A DNA stretch of 64,000 bases, taken from positions 1 through 64,000 of the forward strand of contig CANHQP010000018.1 in the NCBI GenBank assembly GCA_947462925.1, read 5' to 3'. The notes beneath the pieces are model-generated. The model had not been told where the DNA came from, searched no databases, and worked only from the letters and a program-made list of their open reading frames with translations. The translations under genes were made by a program, and so were the position numbers. The DNA comes from Flavobacteriia bacterium. Lineage in GTDB: Bacteria > Bacteroidota > Bacteroidia > Flavobacteriales_D > Crocinitomicaceae. Shown piece after piece: positions 1-64,000 of this stretch. The number at the start of each line of letters is the position of its first letter. The first letter of the stretch is position 1.

Positions 1-765
1 ATAGATATTAGAAATTAGACTAGATTGTTGTTGTTGCTAGGCAACTTTAAGATTTTTGCTGTTTTTGCGAAAATTTTAAATTACTTGAGGAAATCAAGTC
101 TTTTGTCTATGGTCTATTATCTAATGTCTTAAAAAAAGACTCGCTGCGCTGTTAGACAATAGATATTAGAAATTAGATAAGATTGTTGTTGTTGCTAGGC
201 AACTTTAAGATTTTTGCTGTTTTTGCGAAAATTTTAAATTACTTGAGGAAATCAAGTCTTTTGTCTATGGTCTATTATCTAATGTCTTAAAAAAGAGACC
301 CGCTGCGCTGTTAGACAATAGATATTAGAAATTAGACTAGATTGTTGTTGTTGCTAGGCAACTTTAAGATTTTTGCTGTTTTTAAGCAAATTTTAAAGTT
401 CTTAAAAAAACTAATCTTTTGTCTAGCGTCTTTGGTCTAATGTCTTAAAAAAGAGACCCGCTGCGCTGTTAGACAATAGATATTAGAAATTAGACTAGAT
501 TGTTGTTGTTGCTAGGCAACTTTAAGATTGTGATGTTTTTAAGCAAATTTTAAATTTCTTAAAAAAAACTAATCTTTTGTCTAACGTCTTTGGTCTAATG
601 TCTTAAAAAAGAGACTCGCTGCGCTGTTAGACAATAGATATTAGAAATTAGACTAGATTGTTGTTGTTGCTAGGCAACTTTAAGATTTTTGCTGTTTTTG
701 CGAAAATTTTAAATTACTTGAGGAAATCAAGTCTTTTGTCTATGGTCTATTATCTAATGTCTAAT
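1..765. repeat. Five tandem copies of a ~158-bp non-coding repeat
   Basis: Copies begin at 1, 159, 318, 476 and 634; the first four are 158-159 bp and the fifth stops near 765, just before the ettA promoter. Each carries the same ordered blocks: an AGACAATAGATATTAGA-like arm, a run of GTT triplets, TTGCTAGGCAA, an A/T block, CTTGAGGAAATCAAG, then TTGTCTATGGTCTATTATC and CGCTGCGCTG. The two outer arms are imperfect reverse complements of each other (AGACAnTAGATnnTAGA against its complement), so each unit could form a long stem, with two small internal hairpins. Copies 3 and 4 share a divergent middle (TTTTTAAGCAAATTTTAAA instead of TTTTTGCGAAAATTTTAAA), while copies 1, 2 and 5 agree. No long open reading frame runs through it. 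The array may continue left of the window. Function unknown. Confidence 0.93.
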
Positions 766-775
766 AAAAAAAAAC

Positions 776-40781: not shown

Positions 40782-43700
40782 ATGAAAAACATCTTTCTCC
40801 TAGGTGTATTGTGCTTATTTTTAAATGATTCATTCGCTCAAAGAGCAAAGGATGGAGTTTATACTGCCACTACTGCAAATATTGTTGTTAATTCCTATAC
40901 TGCTCTTACTGCAAATGCCAGCGCAAATCAAACATCAATTTCTGTTTCTGATGCTGTACTGACTAATGCAATATTAACAACAGCATTATCTCCTGGAGAT
41001 TTGCTATTGATCATTCAAATGCAAGGTGCTTCTTTAGATATTGATGTCACTGCAACAGTAGATTGGGGAGGAAGTTACACTTCAGCTTTTGGTCATGCAG
41101 GTGATTGGTATAATTTTCTTGACCAGTGGGGACAAGTAACCAATTACAATCAAGCTGGAAAAAACGAATATGTCCAGGTTGCTTCTGTATCGGGAACAAC
41201 AATCAATTTGACTTGCGGATTAAAAAATAGCTATGCTATTAGTGGTAAGGTGCAAGTTATTCGTGTACCTAGATTTAGCCAATTAACAATTAATTCAGCA
41301 GCGAGTTTGGTGCCATCAACATGGAATGGAACCACTGGTGGAGTAATTGCCATCGAAGTAGATGGAAATCTTACTATTAATCCTACTGGTAAAATTGATG
41401 CCAGTGGAAGAGGATTCAGAGGTGGTCAGCAAGTTGATAATGTTTCAACAACTGCTGGCGCAGGCAGTGTAAATGATACTCCATATCCTGGTACTTCAAA
41501 CAGCGATATTGCCTCCGAAAAAGGTGAAGGTATCGGAGGTTATACTTCTGAGTATATTGCTTTGTATTCGCGTTTTGGTGTTTCAGCTCCTGCAAATGGA
41601 GGTGGAGGAGCATATCATCATAATTCTGGCGGCGGAGGTGGATCAAATGTTGGTTCAGGAGCTTATACAGGCAAAGGTGTACCCGATCCTCTTTATAATT
41701 CCATTTGGAATTTAGAAGCTAATCCGATAGGAGGTGTCAACAGCTCAGGTGGAGGAAGAGGTGGATATAGTTATTCTAACACAAATCAAAATGAAGCAGT
41801 TTTAGGACCAAATCAATTAGCTTGGTCTGGTGATTATAGAAGAAATAATGGTGGATTAGGAGGGAAACCTCTTGCCTTTGATGCAACACGTGTATTCCTT
41901 GGCGGAGGTGGAGGAGCAGGAGATCAAGATAATAATTACGGAGGAGCCGGAGGAACAGGGGGAGGAATTGTAATGCTTCAAGTCTTTGGTACTATATCAG
42001 GTCAAAATGCTGCAACTTGCACAATAGAAGCAAATGGAGCAAATGGTGTTGCCGCAAATTCACAAAATCTAACAGCAACATTTGCTCAAAAGTTTGGTAA
42101 TGATGGTGGCGGTGGCGGTGGCGGCGGCGGCGCAATTATAATCTCTAATAATGGAAATGTTCCTGCAGGAATTGGCCTTTTAGCCAGAGGAGGTAATGGA
42201 GGAAACCAAAATCTCTCCGTAGGTCCTTTACAAACAGTGAATGAAGCAGATGGTCCTGGCGGTGGCGGTGGCGGTGGTCAAATTTCTATAACTGCAGGTT
42301 CACCGACCACAACTGTTTCCGGCGGTGTCAATGGAATTACCAATTCAACTCAAGTAAATGCTTTTCCTCCAAATGGCGCTACTTCTGGTGGTTCCGGGCT
42401 TTCAAATACTGGCGTTAATTTTTATGATTTGAATGTTCAAAATGCATCAATTTGTGGGAATGGAACTGCAAATTTGTCGGTAACGGTTATCGGAACTTTA
42501 CCAGCTGGAACATCAGTTGGTTGGTACACCAATCAATTTAGTGGATCGCCTGTGCATACTGGATTGACTTTCATAACTCCAAGTTTGACCACAACAACAA
42601 CCTATTGGGTTGGGATTTGTCCAGGAAGTTTTAGAAAACCGGTTCAAGTAACCGTTGGATCAAATCCAACAATTTCAGGAACAGCTACTATTACAAATGT
42701 TTCATGCGCAGGAAACGATGGAGCAATAAGTGGGTTGACTGTTTCTGGTGGGACGCCAAACTATACCTATTCATGGAACGGAAATCCATCAGCTTCTGCA
42801 AATTTGACTAATGCTAACGCCGGTTCATATACTTTAACAGTGACTGAGTCAAATGGTTGTTCTGCAACGAGTGGACCTTATACAATTGCAAGCGCAGGAG
42901 GTCCGGTTATTAACGCAAGCTTAGTAAATATAGTAAATCCAACTTGTGCTGGAGCGAATGGTTCAATAACAGGAATAACACAAACAGGAGGTGTTGCAAC
43001 ATCTTGGAGCAATAACGGTGGTACAAATCTTAATGCAAATAATTTGAATGCTGGAAGTTACACACTTACAGTAACTGATGCAAGTAACTGTTCTGCAACG
43101 GCTGGACCTTTCGTTTTAACAGCACCTACTGGACCAACGATTGATGCTACAAACATTGTTATAAGCAATGAGAATTGTGGAAATGGAAATGGTTCAATCT
43201 CTGGAATCAATGCGAATGGAGTTAGTTTAACATACAGCTGGTCGAATTCAACACAAACAACTTTAGATATTTCAAATCTTTTAGCAGGATCTTATACATT
43301 AACTGTACTAGACAACCAAGGTTGTTCTGCAACCAGTGGTCCTTATGTTATTGGTTCTAACCCAGCTCAAACAATAAATGTTTCAGGAGTTATATTAACA
43401 CCAGAGACTTGTAGTCAAGATAATGGAGCAATTTCTGGAATTCAAATTTCAGGTGGTGCGGCTCCTTTAAGTTATTCTTGGACTAATACTGCACAAACAA
43501 CTTTGGACATTTCAAACCTCAGTAATGGCACTTACACTTTGACAGTTTTAGATGGAAATGGATGTTCATCAATCTCAAATCCATTTTCTATCGTAGATAC
43601 ACCTATGCCAACAATAAATGATTTAAACATTTTGATTGTAAACGAGTCTTGTACTGGTAATGATGGTTCAATTGCGGGAATTACAACATCAGGCGTTGGA

Positions 43701-44798
43701 TTGACTTATCAATGGAATGGAGTTTTAAGCACACTGAATCAGAGTAATTTAGTTGCAAATTCATATACACTTCTTGTGACTGATGTAAATGGTTGTAGCG
43801 TTTCATCTGGCCCATATGATGTATCTGGTAGTATACCATTAAGTATTGATTTGACAAATGTTAGTACCACAAATTCAGCATGCACAACGAATACTGGGTC
43901 AATTTCAGGAATTAGCATAACAGGTGGGATTAATCCAGTATTCACTTGGTCTAATGGTGCAGCTATTTTGAATCAAAATGGTTTAGGTGCTGGTTCTTAT
44001 ACGATTTCAGTAAATGATGATCAAGGATGCACAGACGCTGAGACTATTGTAATCGCATTAAACTCAGGTCCTCTTATTAATAGCAATGCAGTAAGTATAG
44101 ATCAAACAAGTTGTGGACAAAATAATGCAGAAATTTCTGGACTTGTAGATAATTCTGGTAATTCCAGTTATAGTTGGACTGGTACGACGGATACAACCTT
44201 AAATCTTTCTAATTTGTCTTCTGGGACATATTCTTTAACTGCAACTGGTATTGATGGTTGTGTTTCTCAATTCGGGCCAATTGTAATTAATGCTTCAACT
44301 TCTCCAACTGCAGACTTTAGCTATTCTCCTTTGGATGTTAACCCTGGCGATTTAGTCCAGTTTTCAGATTTATCATCTTCAGATGTAGTATCTTGGGATT
44401 GGCAAGTTGATACTACAGATTTTTTTATTGAAAATCCTAACTATATTTTTGTAACCGAAGGAACATATCAAGTTGTATTGTTAGTAACTGACGGAGCTGG
44501 TTGCACAGCTTCAATAACCAAAATTATTCCAGTTTACAATGAATTGATAATTCCAAATGTACTTACTGTAAATGGAGATGGTAACAATGATAAGTTTGAA
44601 ATTAAGGGATTAGAAATAAATACAACTGTTGAAATTTTAAATCGATGGGGAGAAATTGTTTTCAAATCTGATAATTATTTAAATGATTGGAAAGGACAGG
44701 ATATGAGTGGAAATTACTTAAGTAACGGGGTTTATACTTATCGTATAAAGACCAAAAAGGGGGAGGTTAAACAAGGATTTGTTCATCTAATTGATTAA
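40782..44798 (+). CDS. Large T9SS surface protein: glycine-rich domain, seven SprB-type repeats, PKD and type B sorting domain
   Basis: 1338 residues. Signal peptide 1-19. Residues ~20-205 form a beta domain (LLLIIQMQGASLDID). Residues ~205-530 are extremely Gly/Asn-rich with runs of nine glycines (42105-42131) and seven (42258-42278). An Ig-like domain (ICGNGTANLSV, TTTTTYWVGICPG) leads to seven ~78-residue SprB-like repeats (about 629-1177) of the form C-x4-GxIsGI..GG...YsWs......l.nL..GsYTltVtD..GCs. A PKD domain (DFSYSPLDVNPGDLVQFSDLSS) and a CHU_C sorting domain (NVLTVNGDGNNDKFEI, LNRWGEIVFKS) finish it. Surface location via T9SS is expected; adhesion or gliding is inference. Confidence 0.88.
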   Translation: MKNIFLLGVLCLFLNDSFAQRAKDGVYTATTANIVVNSYTALTANASANQTSISVSDAVLTNAILTTALSPGDLLLIIQMQGASLDIDVTATVDWGGSYTSAFGHAGDWYNFLDQWGQVTNYNQAGKNEYVQVASVSGTTINLTCGLKNSYAISGKVQVIRVPRFSQLTINSAASLVPSTWNGTTGGVIAIEVDGNLTINPTGKIDASGRGFRGGQQVDNVSTTAGAGSVNDTPYPGTSNSDIASEKGEGIGGYTSEYIALYSRFGVSAPANGGGGAYHHNSGGGGGSNVGSGAYTGKGVPDPLYNSIWNLEANPIGGVNSSGGGRGGYSYSNTNQNEAVLGPNQLAWSGDYRRNNGGLGGKPLAFDATRVFLGGGGGAGDQDNNYGGAGGTGGGIVMLQVFGTISGQNAATCTIEANGANGVAANSQNLTATFAQKFGNDGGGGGGGGGAIIISNNGNVPAGIGLLARGGNGGNQNLSVGPLQTVNEADGPGGGGGGGQISITAGSPTTTVSGGVNGITNSTQVNAFPPNGATSGGSGLSNTGVNFYDLNVQNASICGNGTANLSVTVIGTLPAGTSVGWYTNQFSGSPVHTGLTFITPSLTTTTTYWVGICPGSFRKPVQVTVGSNPTISGTATITNVSCAGNDGAISGLTVSGGTPNYTYSWNGNPSASANLTNANAGSYTLTVTESNGCSATSGPYTIASAGGPVINASLVNIVNPTCAGANGSITGITQTGGVATSWSNNGGTNLNANNLNAGSYTLTVTDASNCSATAGPFVLTAPTGPTIDATNIVISNENCGNGNGSISGINANGVSLTYSWSNSTQTTLDISNLLAGSYTLTVLDNQGCSATSGPYVIGSNPAQTINVSGVILTPETCSQDNGAISGIQISGGAAPLSYSWTNTAQTTLDISNLSNGTYTLTVLDGNGCSSISNPFSIVDTPMPTINDLNILIVNESCTGNDGSIAGITTSGVGLTYQWNGVLSTLNQSNLVANSYTLLVTDVNGCSVSSGPYDVSGSIPLSIDLTNVSTTNSACTTNTGSISGISITGGINPVFTWSNGAAILNQNGLGAGSYTISVNDDQGCTDAETIVIALNSGPLINSNAVSIDQTSCGQNNAEISGLVDNSGNSSYSWTGTTDTTLNLSNLSSGTYSLTATGIDGCVSQFGPIVINASTSPTADFSYSPLDVNPGDLVQFSDLSSSDVVSWDWQVDTTDFFIENPNYIFVTEGTYQVVLLVTDGAGCTASITKIIPVYNELIIPNVLTVNGDGNNDKFEIKGLEINTTVEILNRWGEIVFKSDNYLNDWKGQDMSGNYLSNGVYTYRIKTKKGEVKQGFVHLID
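42105..42131 (+). repeat. In-frame GGN microsatellite (nine Gly codons)
   Basis: Nine consecutive GGT/GGC codons in the surface-protein gene; a second tract of seven lies at 42258-42278. Such trinucleotide runs can change length by slippage without a frameshift. Confidence 0.9.
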
Positions 44799-55083: not shown

Positions 55084-58000
55084 ATGCTTAAACTTTACAA
55101 AAAACAATTCGGTTTAATTCTTTTTACCGTTTTTTTGAGTTTTAATTCAAGTTCCCTTTATGCACAATGTGCTTTTGGGAATAATACTACACAAAATCCT
55201 GTTGCTACTTTTACTCCAGCTTGCACCGGCGTAGCAGAAGCTGTTACTACTTGTAATTTTGGAGGTGATTATTTCCTGATGGATGTTATCGCTGGGAATA
55301 CCTACGTTGTTGAAACTTGTGGGGGTTCTTGGGATAGTCAAATTATGGTCTATAATGAATCAACGCAAGCGCTTCTTGGCTACAATGATGATGGCTGTGG
55401 ACTTCAATCGACAGTTCAATTTGTTGCTGGGTACACTGGTATTGCTCGAGTTCTGGTTAGTAGATATAATTGTACCACAAATGCAGTTTGCATTACGACT
55501 AATGTAACTTGTACCTCACCACCAGTTAATAATGATTGCGCTTCAGTTATTCCAGCTGCATTAACTTCTCCCGGAAATTTAACTTTTAATGGAACTTCAG
55601 CGGGTGCAACTGACAATTCTGTTGGTGGTAGCTTAGGTGCCGCTCAAGTTTGGGAAGCTTTTACAATTACTGAATGTGCGACAGTTACAATAAATACTTG
55701 CGGTACAACTCCTTCATTTACACAAATGTTTACTGGAATTTCTACTGCTTGTCCTGCAGATTTTCCATCGACATTTATTACTTCAAATAGTATGGATTTT
55801 ACTACTTGCGCAGATGGAAACAGTACAGCTATTTTTAATAACTTAGCGCCAGGGACTTATTATGTTCCAGTTATCGGAGAGGCTCCTGACAATCATGCTT
55901 ATACATTAAATATTTCCGCTGTAGATTTTATTCCTGAACCTGTTATTACACCTGCTAGTTCGACCACTTTTTGTATTGGTGGTTCTGTTCAATTGGATGT
56001 TGCCGAGGAGCTTGGGCCTGATGTTCAGCAAACTGTAACTGGCGGAGGTTCTATTACTATTCCAAGTTCTGGAAACGGAAATCCTTTTCCTTCTGTTTTA
56101 ACTGTTGCTGCACTCCCTACTTCGGGAATTTCAGTTTATTCAGTAAACATTGATGGGATTTCTCATACGTGGCCAGATGATATTGATATGTGGTTAGTTT
56201 CCCCTTCTGGTCAGGCAGTTATGTTGATGTCTGATGTTGGAGGTGCAAATGATCTTTCAAATTTTAGTTTTGTAATTCAAGATGGAGCACCTGCTTTTTC
56301 TGATGGTGCATTAAATCCTTCTGGTACTTATTCACCCACGGATGTTGGTGCTGGCGATGCAGGTGCACCTGCTGGATATACCACTACACTTTCTACTTTT
56401 ACAGGTGATGTAAATGGGTCCTGGAGCTTACATATTGTTGATGATTTAGGTGGAGATCAAGGTTCTATGACTTCGTGGTCAATGACTTTTAATGTTCCTG
56501 GTACGTCTTTAACCTATACTTGGACCCCTGCAACTGGATTGGATGTTTCAACTGGTATTTCGGTTGTTGCCTCACCAACTGTTAGTACTACTTATACAGT
56601 AACAGCTTCAACTCCCAGTTCAAGTTGTACAAATTCACAAACTGTTGATGTTATCGTTACTCCGTTAACCACTCCAACTTTTACCCAAGTCGCTTCAATT
56701 TGTTCTGGCGCTTCGCTTTCAGCATTGCCAACTGCATCAAATGAAGGAATCACAGGAATTTGGTCACCAGCAATGAATAATACAGCAACAACGACATATA
56801 CTTTCACGCCGACTGCAGGTCAATGTGCGAATACTGCTACGATGACCATTACTGTCAATCCGAATGTTACCCCAACGTTTACTCAAGTCGCAGCAATTTG
56901 TTCTGGCGCTTCGCTTGCAGTATTACCAACGACATCAAATAATGGGATTACTGGAACTTGGTCACCAGCATTGAATAATACAGCAACAACGACTTACACT
57001 TTCACGCCAACGGCAGGACAGTGTGGAAGTACAGCAACAATGACTATTACTGTCAATCCGAATGTTACTCCAACTTTCACTCAAGTCGCAGCAATTTGTT
57101 CTGGCGCTTCTCTTTCAGCATTGCCAACGACATCAAATAATGGAATTACTGGAACCTGGTCACCAGCGTTGAATAATACAGCAACTACGACATATACTTT
57201 TACAGCTGATGCAGGTCAGTGTGCAACAACAGCAACGATGACCATTACGGTTAATCCGAATGTTACGCCAACTTTTACACAAGTGGCACCAATTTGTTTA
57301 GGAGGATCTTTATCGGCATTACCAACACCTTCGAATAATGGTATTACGGGATCATGGTCGCCAGCACCTAATAACACGGTAACGACTACCTATAGTTTTA
57401 CTCCAACAGTTGGTCAGTGTGCAACAACTGCAACAATGACTATTTCAGTTAATTTCAATACTGTTCCAACCTTTACACAACTTGCACCAATTTGTTCGGG
57501 TGGATCATTTACACTTCCAAATCCTTCAACGAATGCGATCACAGGAACTTGGTCACCAGTTCCAAATAATACAGCAACTACGACTTATACATTTACGCCA
57601 ACAGCAGGCCAGTGTGCAGTGACTGCAACAATGACAGTTACAGTTAACCCAAATGTTGCACCGACGTTTACTCAAATCACACCAATTTGTTCAGGTGGAT
57701 CTTTCACATTGCCAAATCCATCAAACAATGGTATTACGGGAAGTTGGTTGCCAGTTGCTAATAATACAACAACGACAACTTATACTTTTACACCAACGGT
57801 AGGTCAGTGTGCAAGTACAGGAACGATGACAGTGACTGTTAATCCGAATGTTGCACCAAACTTTACTCAAATCGCACCTATTTGTTCTGGTGGAGTGATA
57901 AACCTTCCAACGACGTCTCCAAACGGCATCACAGGAACTTGGTCACCAGCAGTAAATAATACAGCAACGACCACTTATACCTTTACCCCAACAGCAGGTT

Positions 58001-61000
58001 TGTGTGCAACAACAGCCACTATGACAGTGACGGTGAATACGAATGTGACACCAAACTTCACTCAAATCGCGCCAATTTGTTCAGGAGGATCTTTAACGCT
58101 TCCAACAACATCAACCAATGGCATCACGGGAAGCTGGTCACCAGGGGTGAATAATACAGCAACGACCACTTATACATTCACACCAACAGCAGGTCAGTGT
58201 GCTACGACAACGACGATGACAGTGACAGTAAATACGAACGTTACGCCAACTTTCACGCAAGTAGCCTCGATTTGTTCAGGTGGCGCTCTGGCTTCACTGC
58301 CAAATCCGTCCAATAATGGAATCACAGGATCATGGTCACCAGCATTGAATAATACAACAACAACGACTTATACATTTACCCCAACAGCAGGACAGTGTGC
58401 AAGTGCAGCTACGATGACAGTGACAGTAACGCCAAATGTAACGCCAACATTTGCGGCAATCGCCCCAATTTGTGCAGGAGCTACTTTGAGTGCATTGCCA
58501 ACAATATCTACCAATGGTATTTCTGGAGGTTGGTCACCAACATTGAATAATACAGCGACAACGACCTATACTTTCACACCAACAGCAGGACAATGTGCTA
58601 CAACGACTACACTTACAATCGTTGTGACGCCAAGTACTACTCCAACATTTACGGCCATAGCGCCAATCTGTTCAGGAGGAACATTTAGTTTATCTGCGGT
58701 TTCCAACAATGGTGTTTTTGGTTCATGGACGCCAGCATTTGACAATACAGTAACGACGACTTATACTTTCACGCCTTTGGCCATTCCAGGACAATGTTCA
58801 TCAACAACAACGATGACCATTACAGTAAATCCAAGTCTGACTCCAAGTTTTACACAAGTATCACCGATTTGCTCAGGAGCAACACTATCAGCATTGCCAA
58901 CAACTTCTAATAATGGAGTAACAGGAACATGGTCACCGGCACTGAATAATACGTCGACTACGACTTATACATTCACCCCAACATCTGGACAATGTGCCAC
59001 AAGTACAACGATGACCATTGTTGTCAATCCGAATGTGACACCAAACTTCACTCAAATCCCAGCAATCTGTTCTGGAGGCGTGATTACTTTGCCAGTTGTT
59101 TCCCCAAATGGCATTGTAGGAAGTTGGTCACCAGCACCAAATAATACAGCGACAACTACTTATACTTTCACACCAACTGTAGGTCAATGTGCGACTACAA
59201 CTACAATGACTATTACAGTGAATGCGAACGTTACGCCAACCTTCACTCAAGTAGGGACGGTTTGTTTTGGATCAAGTTTCACACTTCCAACTCCATCTAA
59301 TAATGGAATTACAGGAACATGGGCACCGGCGCCAAACAATACTTCAACAAGTTCTTATTTGTTTACCCCATCAGCAGGTCAGTGTGCAACGAATGCTTTC
59401 ATGGGAGTTACAGTTGTGCCAAATGTGATTCCAACATTCAATCCTATCGCACCAATTTGTTCTGGAGCTAGTTTGACATTGCCAACTTCTTCAACGAATG
59501 GAATTATCGGAACATGGTCACCAGCGGTGAATAATACAGCAACGACGACTTATACATTTACTCCATCTGCAGGGCAGTGTGCAGTGACAACCACATTGAC
59601 AGTGACTGTTACACCAAACGTTACACCAACCTTTACAGCAGTATCACCAATTTGTGCGGGAGCAACATTGACGCCACTTCCATCACCATCAAATGAAGGA
59701 ATTACGGGAACATGGTCGCCAGCATTGAATAATACAGCAACGACGACATACACATTCACTCCAACAGCAGGAATTTGTGCAACTACCCAAACATTGACCA
59801 TTACAGTCAATCCAAACGTTACACCAAATTTTGTACAAGTAGCACCAATTTGTGTAGGAGGAACACTAGCAGCACTTCCAACGATTTCACCAAATGGAAT
59901 TACGGGGAACTGGTTGCCAGCAGTAAATAATACAGCAACGACCACTTATACATTCACCCCAACAGTAGGTCAATGTGCAACGACAGCTACGATGACCATT
60001 GTGGTGAATCCGATTGTGACACCTACATTCAATCCAATTGCAGCTATTTGCTCGGGAGCGGCTTTAAGTTTACCAACATCATCTAATGAGGGAATTACGG
60101 GAACATGGTCACCAGCGGTGAATAATACGGCCACAACGACTTATACATTTACACCAGCTGCAGGACAATGTGCTGTGACAACGACGTTGACTGTTACCGT
60201 TACACCAAACGTTACGCCGACCTTTACAGCAGTATCACCAATTTGTGCGGGAGCTACATTGGCGCCACTTCCATCACCATCAAACAATGGCATTTCAGGA
60301 ACATGGTCCCCGGCCTTGGATAATACACAAACGACGACATATATATTTACGCCAGATGCAGGAATTTGTGCAACGTCACAAACATTGACCATTACAGTCA
60401 ATCCAAACGTTACTCCAAATTTTGTACAAGTAGCACCAATTTGTGTAGGAGGGACATTGGGTGCGCTTCCAACGATTTCACCAAATGGGATCACAGGGAC
60501 ATGGTCACCAGCAGTGAATAACACAGCTACGACTACTTATACATTCACTCCAGATGCTGGTCTGTGTGCAACGACAGCTACGATGACTATTGTTGTGAAT
60601 CCGATTGTGACACCAACTTTCAATCCAATTGCAGCAATTTGCGAAGGCGCAAGTTTGATCTTACCAACAACATCTATTGAAGGTATCACGGGAACTTGGT
60701 CACCAGCAGTGAATAATACAGCGACCACGACTTACACGTTTACTCCATCTGCAGGGCAGTGTGCAGTGACAACTACAATGAGTGTGACCGTTACACCAAA
60801 CGTAACGCCAACCTTTACGCAAGTATCACCAATTTGTGCAGGAGCAGTTTTAAGTTTACCAACACCATCTAATGAAGGCATCACAGGAACATGGTCACCA
60901 GCGCCTAACAATACGGCGACTACGACTTATACCTTTAGCCCAACAACGGGAGTTTGTGCTACAACGCAATCAATGACAGTGAGTGTGACACCAAACGTGA

Positions 61001-62547
61001 CACCAACATTTGCCGCTGTTGCTCCAATTTGTGTAGGTTCAACTTTGTCTGCATTGCCATTAACATCAAACAATGGTATCACAGGAACATGGTTACCAGC
61101 CTTGGATAATACGCAGACTACGACATACACCTTCACTCCAGATGCAGGACAATGTGCTCTGACAACCACTTTGACAATTACAGTAAATCAGTTGACAGTG
61201 CCAACCTTTCTAGCAGTTGGACCAGTTTGTGTTGGATCAACAATCTCTGCATTGCCATTAACATCAACCAATGGCATCACGGGAGTATGGTCCCCGGCTT
61301 TGGATAATACCCAAACGACTACTTATACTTTCACGCCAAATGCTGGTCAATGTGCAGACATTGCAACGATGACAATCACAGTCAATTCTTTGACATCAAC
61401 GACCTTTGCAGCAGTAGCTCCAATTTGTTCAGGAGATGCATTGGCAGCACTTCCAACGACATCCAATGAAGGTGTTTTAGGAACTTGGTCACCAGCCTTG
61501 GATAACACGCAAACGACTACTTATACATTTACGCCAGATGCAGGTCAATGTGCCGATGTATCGACGTTGACTATTACAGTCAATCAGCCGGTGGTTCCAA
61601 CATTCACCGCAGTAGGACCAATTTGCGCTGGCAATACTTATACTTTGCTTGCAAGTTCACTTGAAGGCATCACAGGAACATGGTCACCAGCGATTGATAA
61701 TACCCAAACAACGACCTACACCTTTACACCAGATGCAGGACAGTGTGCTACAACCGCAACGATGACAGTGTCAGTAGTTTCATCTTCAGACGCAGCCTTT
61801 ACGGTTTCTAATTATTGTAATGGAGTGGGAGCAGCGCCAGTTGTAACAGGACTTTCAGGTGGAATATTTAGTTTCAATCCCGCAGTGACTGATGGCGCAA
61901 TCATTGATCCATCTACAGGTGTTATTATTAGCGGAGTTGAAGGGACTACTTACATTGTTCAATACACATTGACAGGTTCGTGTACGGTATTCTCTCAAGA
62001 GTTGATTTCATTTGTTGCAACACCAACAACTCCAGTATTATCCAATGATACAACTTATTGTTTGACATCTACATTTGTGAGTATGACAGCGACAAATACA
62101 GGAGGAACAACGAGTTGGTATAGTGATTTAGGGATGACAAATTTACTTGGTACTGGAACGAATCTTTTGCCATCAAATACATTGGGTACAACCACATACT
62201 ACGTGAGTGAAAACTTACAAGGTTGCCAAAGTCCAATGGACAGTGTGGTGGTAACGGTGAAAGATTGTTATGAATTTACAGCACCTTCAGCCTTCACGCC
62301 AGATGGCGATGGCGTAAACGACAGCTGGGTGATTTCAGAGTTGAGCATTCGTTATCCAAATAACAATGTAACGATATTCAACCGTTGGGGTCAAGTGTTG
62401 TATAATTCTGATGGTTATTTGATACCATGGGATGGAAGATTTGACAACAAAGATTTGCCAGTAGGATCTTATTACTACATCATCGATTTCAATGATGCCT
62501 TGGATACACCAAATGCAACAGGAATAGTAACAATCATCAGAAATTAA
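55084..62547 (+). CDS. Giant T9SS surface protein with 26 tandem Ig-like repeats
   Basis: 2487 residues. Signal peptide 1-28; a pre-peptidase-like domain (~30-140; GYNDDGCGLQSTVQFVAGYTG); a second similar domain (~155-285); a proprotein-convertase P-like domain (~320-472; DDIDMWLVSPSGQAVML, WSLHIVDDLGGDQGSMTSW); an Ig-like domain. Residues 531-2235 are 26 repeats of 65-67 residues (PTFTQVAAICSGASLSALP, NGITGTWSPALNNTATTTYT, FTPTAGQC, TMTITVNPNVT). Then two further Ig-like domains and a C-terminal gliding-motility sorting domain (SAFTPDGDGVNDSWVI, FNRWGQVLYNS). T9SS export and surface display are firm family inference; adhesion or motility is likely. It is followed after 11 bp by a PorP/SprF gene. 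Confidence 0.93.
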   Translation: MLKLYKKQFGLILFTVFLSFNSSSLYAQCAFGNNTTQNPVATFTPACTGVAEAVTTCNFGGDYFLMDVIAGNTYVVETCGGSWDSQIMVYNESTQALLGYNDDGCGLQSTVQFVAGYTGIARVLVSRYNCTTNAVCITTNVTCTSPPVNNDCASVIPAALTSPGNLTFNGTSAGATDNSVGGSLGAAQVWEAFTITECATVTINTCGTTPSFTQMFTGISTACPADFPSTFITSNSMDFTTCADGNSTAIFNNLAPGTYYVPVIGEAPDNHAYTLNISAVDFIPEPVITPASSTTFCIGGSVQLDVAEELGPDVQQTVTGGGSITIPSSGNGNPFPSVLTVAALPTSGISVYSVNIDGISHTWPDDIDMWLVSPSGQAVMLMSDVGGANDLSNFSFVIQDGAPAFSDGALNPSGTYSPTDVGAGDAGAPAGYTTTLSTFTGDVNGSWSLHIVDDLGGDQGSMTSWSMTFNVPGTSLTYTWTPATGLDVSTGISVVASPTVSTTYTVTASTPSSSCTNSQTVDVIVTPLTTPTFTQVASICSGASLSALPTASNEGITGIWSPAMNNTATTTYTFTPTAGQCANTATMTITVNPNVTPTFTQVAAICSGASLAVLPTTSNNGITGTWSPALNNTATTTYTFTPTAGQCGSTATMTITVNPNVTPTFTQVAAICSGASLSALPTTSNNGITGTWSPALNNTATTTYTFTADAGQCATTATMTITVNPNVTPTFTQVAPICLGGSLSALPTPSNNGITGSWSPAPNNTVTTTYSFTPTVGQCATTATMTISVNFNTVPTFTQLAPICSGGSFTLPNPSTNAITGTWSPVPNNTATTTYTFTPTAGQCAVTATMTVTVNPNVAPTFTQITPICSGGSFTLPNPSNNGITGSWLPVANNTTTTTYTFTPTVGQCASTGTMTVTVNPNVAPNFTQIAPICSGGVINLPTTSPNGITGTWSPAVNNTATTTYTFTPTAGLCATTATMTVTVNTNVTPNFTQIAPICSGGSLTLPTTSTNGITGSWSPGVNNTATTTYTFTPTAGQCATTTTMTVTVNTNVTPTFTQVASICSGGALASLPNPSNNGITGSWSPALNNTTTTTYTFTPTAGQCASAATMTVTVTPNVTPTFAAIAPICAGATLSALPTISTNGISGGWSPTLNNTATTTYTFTPTAGQCATTTTLTIVVTPSTTPTFTAIAPICSGGTFSLSAVSNNGVFGSWTPAFDNTVTTTYTFTPLAIPGQCSSTTTMTITVNPSLTPSFTQVSPICSGATLSALPTTSNNGVTGTWSPALNNTSTTTYTFTPTSGQCATSTTMTIVVNPNVTPNFTQIPAICSGGVITLPVVSPNGIVGSWSPAPNNTATTTYTFTPTVGQCATTTTMTITVNANVTPTFTQVGTVCFGSSFTLPTPSNNGITGTWAPAPNNTSTSSYLFTPSAGQCATNAFMGVTVVPNVIPTFNPIAPICSGASLTLPTSSTNGIIGTWSPAVNNTATTTYTFTPSAGQCAVTTTLTVTVTPNVTPTFTAVSPICAGATLTPLPSPSNEGITGTWSPALNNTATTTYTFTPTAGICATTQTLTITVNPNVTPNFVQVAPICVGGTLAALPTISPNGITGNWLPAVNNTATTTYTFTPTVGQCATTATMTIVVNPIVTPTFNPIAAICSGAALSLPTSSNEGITGTWSPAVNNTATTTYTFTPAAGQCAVTTTLTVTVTPNVTPTFTAVSPICAGATLAPLPSPSNNGISGTWSPALDNTQTTTYIFTPDAGICATSQTLTITVNPNVTPNFVQVAPICVGGTLGALPTISPNGITGTWSPAVNNTATTTYTFTPDAGLCATTATMTIVVNPIVTPTFNPIAAICEGASLILPTTSIEGITGTWSPAVNNTATTTYTFTPSAGQCAVTTTMSVTVTPNVTPTFTQVSPICAGAVLSLPTPSNEGITGTWSPAPNNTATTTYTFSPTTGVCATTQSMTVSVTPNVTPTFAAVAPICVGSTLSALPLTSNNGITGTWLPALDNTQTTTYTFTPDAGQCALTTTLTITVNQLTVPTFLAVGPVCVGSTISALPLTSTNGITGVWSPALDNTQTTTYTFTPNAGQCADIATMTITVNSLTSTTFAAVAPICSGDALAALPTTSNEGVLGTWSPALDNTQTTTYTFTPDAGQCADVSTLTITVNQPVVPTFTAVGPICAGNTYTLLASSLEGITGTWSPAIDNTQTTTYTFTPDAGQCATTATMTVSVVSSSDAAFTVSNYCNGVGAAPVVTGLSGGIFSFNPAVTDGAIIDPSTGVIISGVEGTTYIVQYTLTGSCTVFSQELISFVATPTTPVLSNDTTYCLTSTFVSMTATNTGGTTSWYSDLGMTNLLGTGTNLLPSNTLGTTTYYVSENLQGCQSPMDSVVVTVKDCYEFTAPSAFTPDGDGVNDSWVISELSIRYPNNNVTIFNRWGQVLYNSDGYLIPWDGRFDNKDLPVGSYYYIIDFNDALDTPNATGIVTIIRN
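56674..61788 (+). repeat. 26-copy tandem array of ~197-bp coding repeats
   Basis: 5115 bp encode 1705 residues in 26 units of 65-67 residues. Each unit has a conserved Cys after PI/AI (IC-x-G) and a second in GQC or a variant, about 40 residues apart. Units 15-17 (59431-60021) and 18-20 (60022-60612) form a duplicated three-unit block of exactly 591 bp. Later units (19, 23-26) share DNTQTTTYTFTPDAG whereas most early ones have NNTATTTYTFTPTAG. Confidence 0.95.
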
Positions 62548-62558
62548 TCTTTTTGATT

Positions 62559-63596
62559 ATGAATAAAAAATTAATTACCGCAGTTTTAGCGATGGTATCT
62601 TTAACAGGTATCTCGCAACAAATGCCACAGTATAGCCAATACCTTCGCAACCAGTTTATGGTCAATCCAGCTGCAGCGGGCGTTTATGATTTCACAGACA
62701 TCACGGTGAGTGGAAGATGGCAATGGATAGGATTTGACAATACACCAAAAACCGCTTATGCATCCATGAGCACCGTTTTGGGACAAAGAAAGCGCGACAC
62801 TTATAATCCAGGGATTAGAACGAGTGTTGGCGGCAACGAAAGTCCTGAGGTGAATACTGGAAGATTGAAACACGCTGTGGGCGGACAAGTAATTGCTGAC
62901 CAATATGGTGCTTTCCAGAAAATCAATTTGTCGGGAACGTATGCCATTCACTTGCCAATTACCAAAAAGTACAACTTGGCATTTGGAGCGAAAGTAGGGA
63001 TGACCAACAATACATTCTTGCAAGATAGAGCAGTTACTTTGACACCAGGTTCTGATGCTACTTACCAAACCTTTGTTGCCAACCAAAGCAATAAATTCAA
63101 TTTGGATATCGGTGCAGGATTTTACCTTTATTCCCAAAAAGTATTTGTGGGTGTTTCAGCCGATCAGTTGACAGGCGACATGGTTGAATTTGGTTCAGGA
63201 ACAGCATTTTTTGACAGACAAATCCACATGATGCTTACCGGTGGGGTGAAAATCCCAATGGGTGAAAATTTAGAACTTACGCCAGCGGTTTTGGTGAAAT
63301 TCATGAATCCAGCGCCACTAGCTATTGAAGGAAGTTTACAGTTAGAGTACAAACAACGCTATTGGTTTGGAGCTTCATACCGCCACCAAGATGCAGTTGT
63401 GGGCATGGTAGGAATGAACATCAGCACAAGATTTAAGTTTGGTTATTCATTTGATTTTTCAATCAATAGATACAATACTTACAAATCAGGCGGACATGAA
63501 TTGGTACTTGGAATTATGCTCGGAAGAAATCGTCCAGGAGCAAATCCTCCAGCATCGACATCAGGTTCAACGACAACAACGCCAACTACTTTTTAA
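62559..63596 (+). CDS. PorP/SprF-like outer-membrane protein of the type IX secretion system
   Basis: A 345-residue protein from ATG at 62559 (a TTG two codons upstream is less likely) with a signal peptide (NKKLITAVLAMVSLTGISQ). Hallmarks of PorP/SprF: QMPQYSQYLRNQFMVNPAAAGVYDFTD and SGRWQWIGFDNTPKTAYASMS; the rest is a series of amphipathic strands (FGAKVGMTNNTF, NLDIGAGFYLYSQKVFVGVSADQL). In Flavobacterium, SprF is needed for SprB secretion or attachment; here it follows the giant repeat protein by 11 bp. A Pro/Ser/Thr-rich tail ends the protein. Confidence 0.93.
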   Translation: MNKKLITAVLAMVSLTGISQQMPQYSQYLRNQFMVNPAAAGVYDFTDITVSGRWQWIGFDNTPKTAYASMSTVLGQRKRDTYNPGIRTSVGGNESPEVNTGRLKHAVGGQVIADQYGAFQKINLSGTYAIHLPITKKYNLAFGAKVGMTNNTFLQDRAVTLTPGSDATYQTFVANQSNKFNLDIGAGFYLYSQKVFVGVSADQLTGDMVEFGSGTAFFDRQIHMMLTGGVKIPMGENLELTPAVLVKFMNPAPLAIEGSLQLEYKQRYWFGASYRHQDAVVGMVGMNISTRFKFGYSFDFSINRYNTYKSGGHELVLGIMLGRNRPGANPPASTSGSTTTTPTTF

Positions 63597-63671
63597 GAAA
63601 TAGAATCGCCTCTCAAAGGGTAAGAAAGGGATTAAAAAGCCAAGCAAAAACATTAGCAAAACGCAATTAAA

Positions 63672-64000
63672 ATGAAACAAGGATATACATTAGTACTATT
63701 TTTTCTATTCTCAACCGTTTACAGCGCCAATGCCCAGTTTTGGGATTTCAGTCCGGCTACAAAGTTGAGTGAAACCATCAATTCCAATGCAGAGGAAAGT
63801 ATGCCGATGTTTTCGAAAGATAGTTCGACTTTGTATTTTGTGAGAACCTTTGATGCCAAAAATTCAGGTGGAGCGATTGACCAAGATATTTGGTATAGCA
63901 GCAAAAACGAGAAAGGTTTTTATGGCAAAAGTGAGAAACTGACAGCGCTCAACAATAAACTTAACAACGCGGTTTGTGGAATGAATGCAGATGGTACTTC
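63672..64000 (+). CDS. Secreted PD40/OmpA-type protein, truncated by the window edge
   Basis: The frame is open from ATG 63672 to the end of the window (109 codons). It begins with a signal peptide (QGYTLVLFFLFSTVYSANAQ), then PATKLSETINSNAEESMPMFSKDSSTLYFVRTFDAKNSGG and DQDIWYSSKNEKG, the opening of a WD40-like PD40 propeller. Proteins of this kind, often ending in an OmpA domain, commonly follow PorP/SprF in T9SS-associated operons. Only the N-terminal 4-5% to 20% of the expected length is present, so the OmpA part cannot be confirmed. Confidence 0.78.
   Translation, partial: MKQGYTLVLFFLFSTVYSANAQFWDFSPATKLSETINSNAEESMPMFSKDSSTLYFVRTFDAKNSGGAIDQDIWYSSKNEKGFYGKSEKLTALNNKLNNAVCGMNADGT

Follow-up and report, generated by a model that had tools for sequence, protein, structure and literature searches.

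Stalk A, a giant T9SS type B cargo with 26 Ig-like units, is probably a static fibrillar adhesin with an anchor cassette in common with a second stalk gene

Stalk A is encoded on the forward (+) strand at 55084..62547 of the window, the whole stretch of 64,000 nucleotides that was analysed. Its product, an open reading frame of 2487 aa with CHU_C and TIGR04131 above cut-off, is a giant T9SS type B cargo and probably a static fibrillar adhesin whose stalk is built of an Ig-like domain without a family name. The explanation favored here, with a probability of about 0.68, is that of a T9SS type B fibrillar adhesin in which a 26-unit Ig-like stalk lifts a head of pre-peptidase C-terminal (PPC)-like modules and a P-domain, with a static anchor formed by SprF-like and PorE-like proteins and a cassette that is common with a second stalk gene, B. 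Domain content, gene order, the absence of a Cys tail, unit register and the homogenised cassette were all computed for protein A.

The signal peptide would take the protein across the inner membrane, and the T9SS translocon would take it across the outer one. Its CHU_C domain would then dock on the SprF-like carrier, whose gene lies 11 bp downstream, and the PorE-like protein (PD40+OmpA) encoded by the following gene would link this carrier to the cell wall. Short linkers containing Pro would connect the 26 units, each of which probably has a disulfide of its own, into a stalk with an estimated length of some 100 nm (about 4 nm for each of 26 units) that holds two PPC-like modules and the P-domain away from the cell. 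The stalk would be static, given a carrier that lacks the Cys-X-Cys tail of the gliding track and a PorE-like partner. The array would consist of a conserved cell-side part of 17 units and a tip-side part altered by block duplication, and the anchor cassettes of A and B would be kept alike, most simply by gene conversion.

General features of the stalk gene

The array of 26 Ig-like units (56674..61791, +; aa 531-2236; 65-67 aa each) was delimited by repeat count, TRF and AF2 and makes up 1706 of the 2487 residues (69%); TRF recovers it independently with a period of 198 and a score of 2170. Two Cys spaced 40-42 residues apart are present in 26/26 units, invariant columns include F3, C10, G12, W30, Y42, F44 and C51, and the array is 25% Thr with Lys, Arg and His all at zero. 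A sequence-only reading of this DNA had described 26 Ser/Thr/Asn-rich units of 65-67 residues, with two Cys each about 40 apart, as two thirds of a 2487-residue protein, and the open reading frame, unit count and composition agree with it on each of these points. Its array start at 56674 is also correct, but the end is at 61791 and not at 61788, and the units are not near-identical as it had stated: pairwise identity averages 68% for amino acids (48-91) and 72% for nucleotides (56-87). The longest exact DNA repeat is 38 bp, so the array is resolvable by short-read assembly. An older duplication of a three-unit block was found by unit comparison between units 16-18 and 19-21 (59626..60807, +), which are 81-87% alike in nucleotides.

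The composition free of Lys, Arg and His is common to the arrays of the same-genus orthologues and paralogues, with a single Lys among them. A K/R-free array as a family-wide trait was considered and rejected, as one distant array among the four proteins compared has 29 Lys and 4 Arg.

No model in Pfam or NCBIfam covers the stalk unit. Protein A resembles the fibrillar adhesin-like proteins (PMC8286594) in being extracellular with a terminal head, tandem stalk domains and an anchor, and CHU_C is among the anchors listed for that group (PMC8286594); the rod-forming stalk and anchor that characterize the group correspond here to the domain chain, with a presumed stiffness, and CHU_C. Protein A differs from them in that its unit is absent from Pfam, so that Pfam-based surveys would miss the array. 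Of 296 Bacteroidota genomes searched with the unit profile, 22 gave a match at E <= 0.001, and arrays of 30 (L079) and 28 (L080) units occur among the relatives. The named relatives of protein A are mostly Flavobacteriales metagenome genomes, and a contig that carries the name Fluviicola sp. SJ411 has a 96% match to the last 146 residues of the protein, on which basis the host is probably Fluviicola (Crocinitomicaceae), a freshwater Bacteroidota. At the opposite end of the window (1-771), ahead of the first gene, a 158-bp unit is repeated in tandem about 4.9 times with 92% matches.

Variation among species

Three genomes were compared, one per species: the window genome (G000), a sister species (G001) and a third species (G002). 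All belong to the same genus, G001 and G002 carry an orthologue of stalk A, and gene B is present in all three. G000 and G001 each have 26 units in gene A, in register, with a same-index nucleotide identity of 0.90 versus 0.71 off-diagonal and offset 0 lying 5.9 s.d. above the other offsets. Gene A of G002 has 19 recognisable units, and its units 3-19 match units 10-26 of G000. By this register test, units 1-9 form a tip-side zone (56674..58443, +) that is out of register with the third species, and units 10-26 form a cell-side zone of 17 units (58444..61791, +) that is in register in the three species.

Gene B has 41 units in G000, 22 in G001 and 29 in G002, and the 17 nearest the cell keep register across the three species; the 24, 5 and 12 tip-side units respectively fall outside the three-species register, and some of them still match between G001 and G002. 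Both genes are thus conserved toward the cell and variable toward the tip, and the equal length of the conserved zones (17 units) may be a coincidence. Units 14-24 of gene B in G000 contain three-unit blocks that are up to 95-97% alike in nucleotides, a likeness that marks the amplification of the block as recent. Exact repeats in that array reach 104 bp, so its 41 units may be an underestimate. The gene B sequence of G000 (L021; G000:C16:56000-69296), with 41 units of the stalk A family, is open at the contig end in CHU_C.

The identity of G000 and G001 at 4-fold-degenerate sites changes within the array. Nine genes upstream of stalk A have values of about 0.3-0.55, the head has mostly 0.3-0.4, and units 1-2 have 0.33-0.40. 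The identity rises through units 3-5 (57070..57660, +) from about 0.35 to about 0.85, and is then mostly 0.7-0.95 from unit 6 to the gene end and 0.83 in SprF. The best reading of this pattern is a putative recombination junction inside array A that separates the head and upstream genes from the stalk and anchor. No such step was seen against G002, for which the values in the array are 0.45-0.47. Identity at these sites ranges from 0.4 to 1.0 elsewhere in the G000 and G001 genomes, so the exchange is not unique to stalk A. At G000:C16:50000-58000 (L131), the values swing from 0.40 to 1.00 between neighbouring genes, which suggests frequent exchange between the two species. Between G000 and G001, the common ancestry of units 6-26 and the anchor is more recent than that of the head and upstream genes. 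This weakens the equality of 26 and 26 units as a sign of long-term conservation, and the conservation argument rests on the three-species register.

The array had been read at first as length-variable. This holds only in part: A has 26 units in both sister species and keeps its 17 proximal units in the third, and variation in unit number is limited to the tip side, mainly in paralogue B, and is seen between more distant species. Protein A was therefore weighed as a Periscope protein, in which near-identical repeats recombine fast and a strain-variable copy number sets the projection of the head. It has in common with SasG, Rib and Sgo_0707 (PMC8201768) the tandem folded domains raising an N-terminal head; the 41, 22 and 29 units of paralogue B, its three-unit block amplification at 95-97% and the different tip-side part of A in the third species would fit such a process. 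However, Periscope proteins have long, highly identical DNA repeats, and their extreme length change is tied to the highest repeat identity (PMC8201768), whereas 72% between the units of A is too low and 38 bp of exact repeat too short, the 26 units are conserved in number and in register between sister species, and change is confined to the tip side. For protein A this explanation is considered improbable.

Head domain structure

A Sec signal peptide (aa 1-27, MLKLYKKQFGLILFTVFLSFNSSSLYA; 55084..55164, +) was read from the sequence and is followed by two pre-peptidase-like beta modules (aa 28-286; 55165..55941, +), recognised from an AF2 model and Foldseek, and by a P-domain (PF01483, aa 359-469; 56158..56490, +) recognised by Pfam. 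The head was modelled with a pLDDT of 81.5, and its best solved neighbours in Foldseek are the tandem collagen-binding domains s3a-s3b of ColG (E 1.8e-6), which we take to be of the pre-peptidase C-terminal fold, along with furin/Kex2 P-domains. The Pfam PPC model is not significant on the head (E = 4). Both components of the head had been proposed before: the P-domain is confirmed by Pfam, and the pre-peptidase-like part is recognised by fold (ColG) and not by Pfam. Judging from the sequence, the P-domain is apparently nested in an Ig-like domain, which begins near C297 and continues after the insertion to C515.

The head would be the adhesive part of protein A. The converse, that the repeats themselves bind in a multivalent manner and the head is secondary, finds some encouragement in paralogue B, in which no PPC-like or P-domain head was recognised (Pfam detects no P-domain in gene B) and which in G001 has a unit-like stretch directly after the signal peptide, and in the W, Y and F conserved in every unit. 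The conserved residues are, however, also those of the domain core, and the unit matches no known binding family, and binding by the repeats is accordingly judged unlikely.

Secretion and anchoring

The C-terminal part of protein A contains Ig_7, a CHU_C-associated Ig-like domain (PF19081, aa 2314-2393; 62023..62262, +; Pfam), and the CHU_C or T9SS type B sorting domain (PF13585 and TIGR04131, aa 2400-2483; 62281..62532, +; Pfam and NCBIfam), which scores 78.8 bits with CHU_C (cut-off 27) and 61.1 with TIGR04131 (cut-off 35). The PorP/SprF-like carrier gene directly downstream begins with an ATG at 62559 (62559..63596, +; PF11751, 226 bits), and is followed by a PorE-like gene (63672..64000, +), found by domain search, that is cut by the window end; PD40 is found in the part within the window, and PD40 and OmpA in full-length relatives, complete in L130 and L129. 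SprA is above cut-off in the same genome. The sorting domain, signal peptide, linked carrier and translocon (SprA) of a T9SS type B cargo are therefore all present.

Static anchoring of stalk A is predicted by analogy with Flavobacterium johnsoniae, in which the cargo Fjoh_3952, the SprF-like Fjoh_3951 and the PorE-like Fjoh_3950 form static foci (PMC12618676). Stalk A has in common with that system the gene order cargo-SprF-PorE, the CHU_C sorting domain and the predicted static anchoring, with a PorE-like PD40+OmpA gene in the operon as in the static complex; it differs in having two stalk genes with a common homogenised cassette of C-terminal domain, SprF and PorE, and a different, unnamed Ig-like stalk family. 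Stalk A might instead be a gliding adhesin, carried along the cell by an SprF-GldK track in the manner of SprB of F. johnsoniae, which is likewise a giant type B cargo with an SprF-family carrier, and some type B cargos do move helically (PMC12618676). The Cys-X-Cys tail of SprF is required for its link to GldK of the moving gliding track (PMC12635249), whereas the carrier of stalk A has no Cys at all and thus no such tail, and no PorE-like gene accompanies the moving type B cargos of F. johnsoniae (PMC12618676), whereas stalk A has one next to its carrier gene. Movement is not expected on these grounds, and the gliding explanation is doubtful. Among the other SprF paralogues read in the same genome, two have Cys-bearing tails and none has an exact Cys-X-Cys, so the F. 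johnsoniae rule may not carry over to this carrier family.

The window encodes a second T9SS type B protein at 40782-44798, of 1338 aa with CHU_C, SprB repeat, Ig_7 and PKD. No SprF-like gene is among the three genes 3' of it (DUF6272, histone deacetylase-like and TspO).

Sequence exchange between the two stalk loci

In each of the three species, A and B are about 50% alike in nucleotides up to the end of Ig_7 and 82-100% alike from 62273 onward. This homogenised anchor cassette (62273..64000, +) runs on to contig position 64474. In the CHU_C part at 62333-62392, A and B of the same species are 97% (G000), 88% (G001, the weakest of the three) and 100% (G002) alike, versus 80-93% between species. 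The assemblies reflect the likeness: the window contig of G000 (C18) overlaps C80 and C61 by exactly 149 bp each, C3 and C27 of G001 both lead into C29, and in G002 C3 and C4 share their final 149 bp, as C17 and C6 share their first 149 bp. In G001 the two SprF copies are 95% alike and the two PorE-like genes 89% alike, and the downstream contexts of the latter, an S46 peptidase and a gene read from sequence as a uracil-DNA glycosylase, recur in G000 and G002. Since the genomes were assembled from metagenomes and each stalk gene continues into the shared repeat, the pairing of SprF copy and stalk is ambiguous.

The simplest reading is gene conversion between the two loci, acting on the sorting domain, the carrier and the 5' portion of the PorE-like gene. 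A literature search on gene conversion of T9SS sorting domains found no paper on that subject, and the single one returned deals with gingipain adhesin domains. The DNA upstream of gene B (L021:1155-1237) matches the PorE-like gene after the carrier (G000:C18:64287-64373) over about 87 bp at 90% identity, and C16:57233-57463 is 84% identical to the 3' part of the PorE-like region; these matches suggest a remnant of a PorE-like gene before gene B. Tentatively, the loci might form a two-part system, in which a docking cassette is kept alike at both by gene conversion so that either carrier docks either stalk, and the arrays act as crossover zones that exchange heads and tip-side segments between lineages, with a fixed cell-side segment of 17 units in both.

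Structure prediction of the stalk

Prediction of three stalk units with AF2, a check that the sequence-only reading had proposed, gave a confident three-domain beta chain with a pLDDT of 96.5, which does not prove a straight rod as inter-domain error was not part of the output; the stiffness of the stalk is presumed from the model. Its reading of the array as a stalk is well supported by this chain, the N-terminal head, the C-terminal type B sorting domain, the SprF-like carrier and the PorE-like gene.

Both Cys are kept in 486 of 489 distinct units collected from relatives, with only three losses, so that covariation cannot decide their pairing; two distant units (L111 and L120) are without the first Cys and keep the second. 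In 23 of 468 units both Cys are kept though the neighbour Cys required for an inter-unit bond is missing on one side, a pattern that weakly favors an intra-domain bond. One disulfide per stalk domain is plausible.

The solved structures nearest to the units are mostly extended Ig-like chains, and five of the six best are fragments of GhpA of Aureispira (PDB 9flp and related), from its neck and other parts, with E down to 1.2e-5 and a TM of about 0.5. Searches of PDB sequences with the unit profile, a triplet profile and the whole protein found no relative, only a chance lysozyme match (E 0.06), so the GhpA match is one of fold and not of membership; a viral fold library gave generic Ig-like matches only. 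Although GhpA is also T9SS-secreted and its heptamer is the grappling hook (PMC11205867), a predation appendage in which several chains of protein A form such a hook is very unlikely, as no PDB chain, GhpA entries included, credibly matches protein A in sequence, and as protein A does not reach half the size of GhpA (5,898 aa, PMC13319060), lacks a Pfam match to DUF11 (the domain of the Chloroflexota homologue of GhpA), and matches GhpA as a generic Ig-like chain.

Conclusions

Stalk A adds a high-confidence stalk domain family that is unnamed in Pfam and NCBIfam, and provides a natural case of two giant cargos with one type B sorting signal and carrier in common. With the common cassette, comparison becomes a way to test carrier specificity and cross-talk, which is an open question for type B cargos. 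The array with its two zones indicates that repeat stalks need not vary over their full length and that the cell-side part can be frozen as the tip side turns over. Stalk A is probably held to the cell by a sorting tail and an outer-membrane partner in common with the second giant stalk protein, and the head and outer end of stalk A probably evolve separately.
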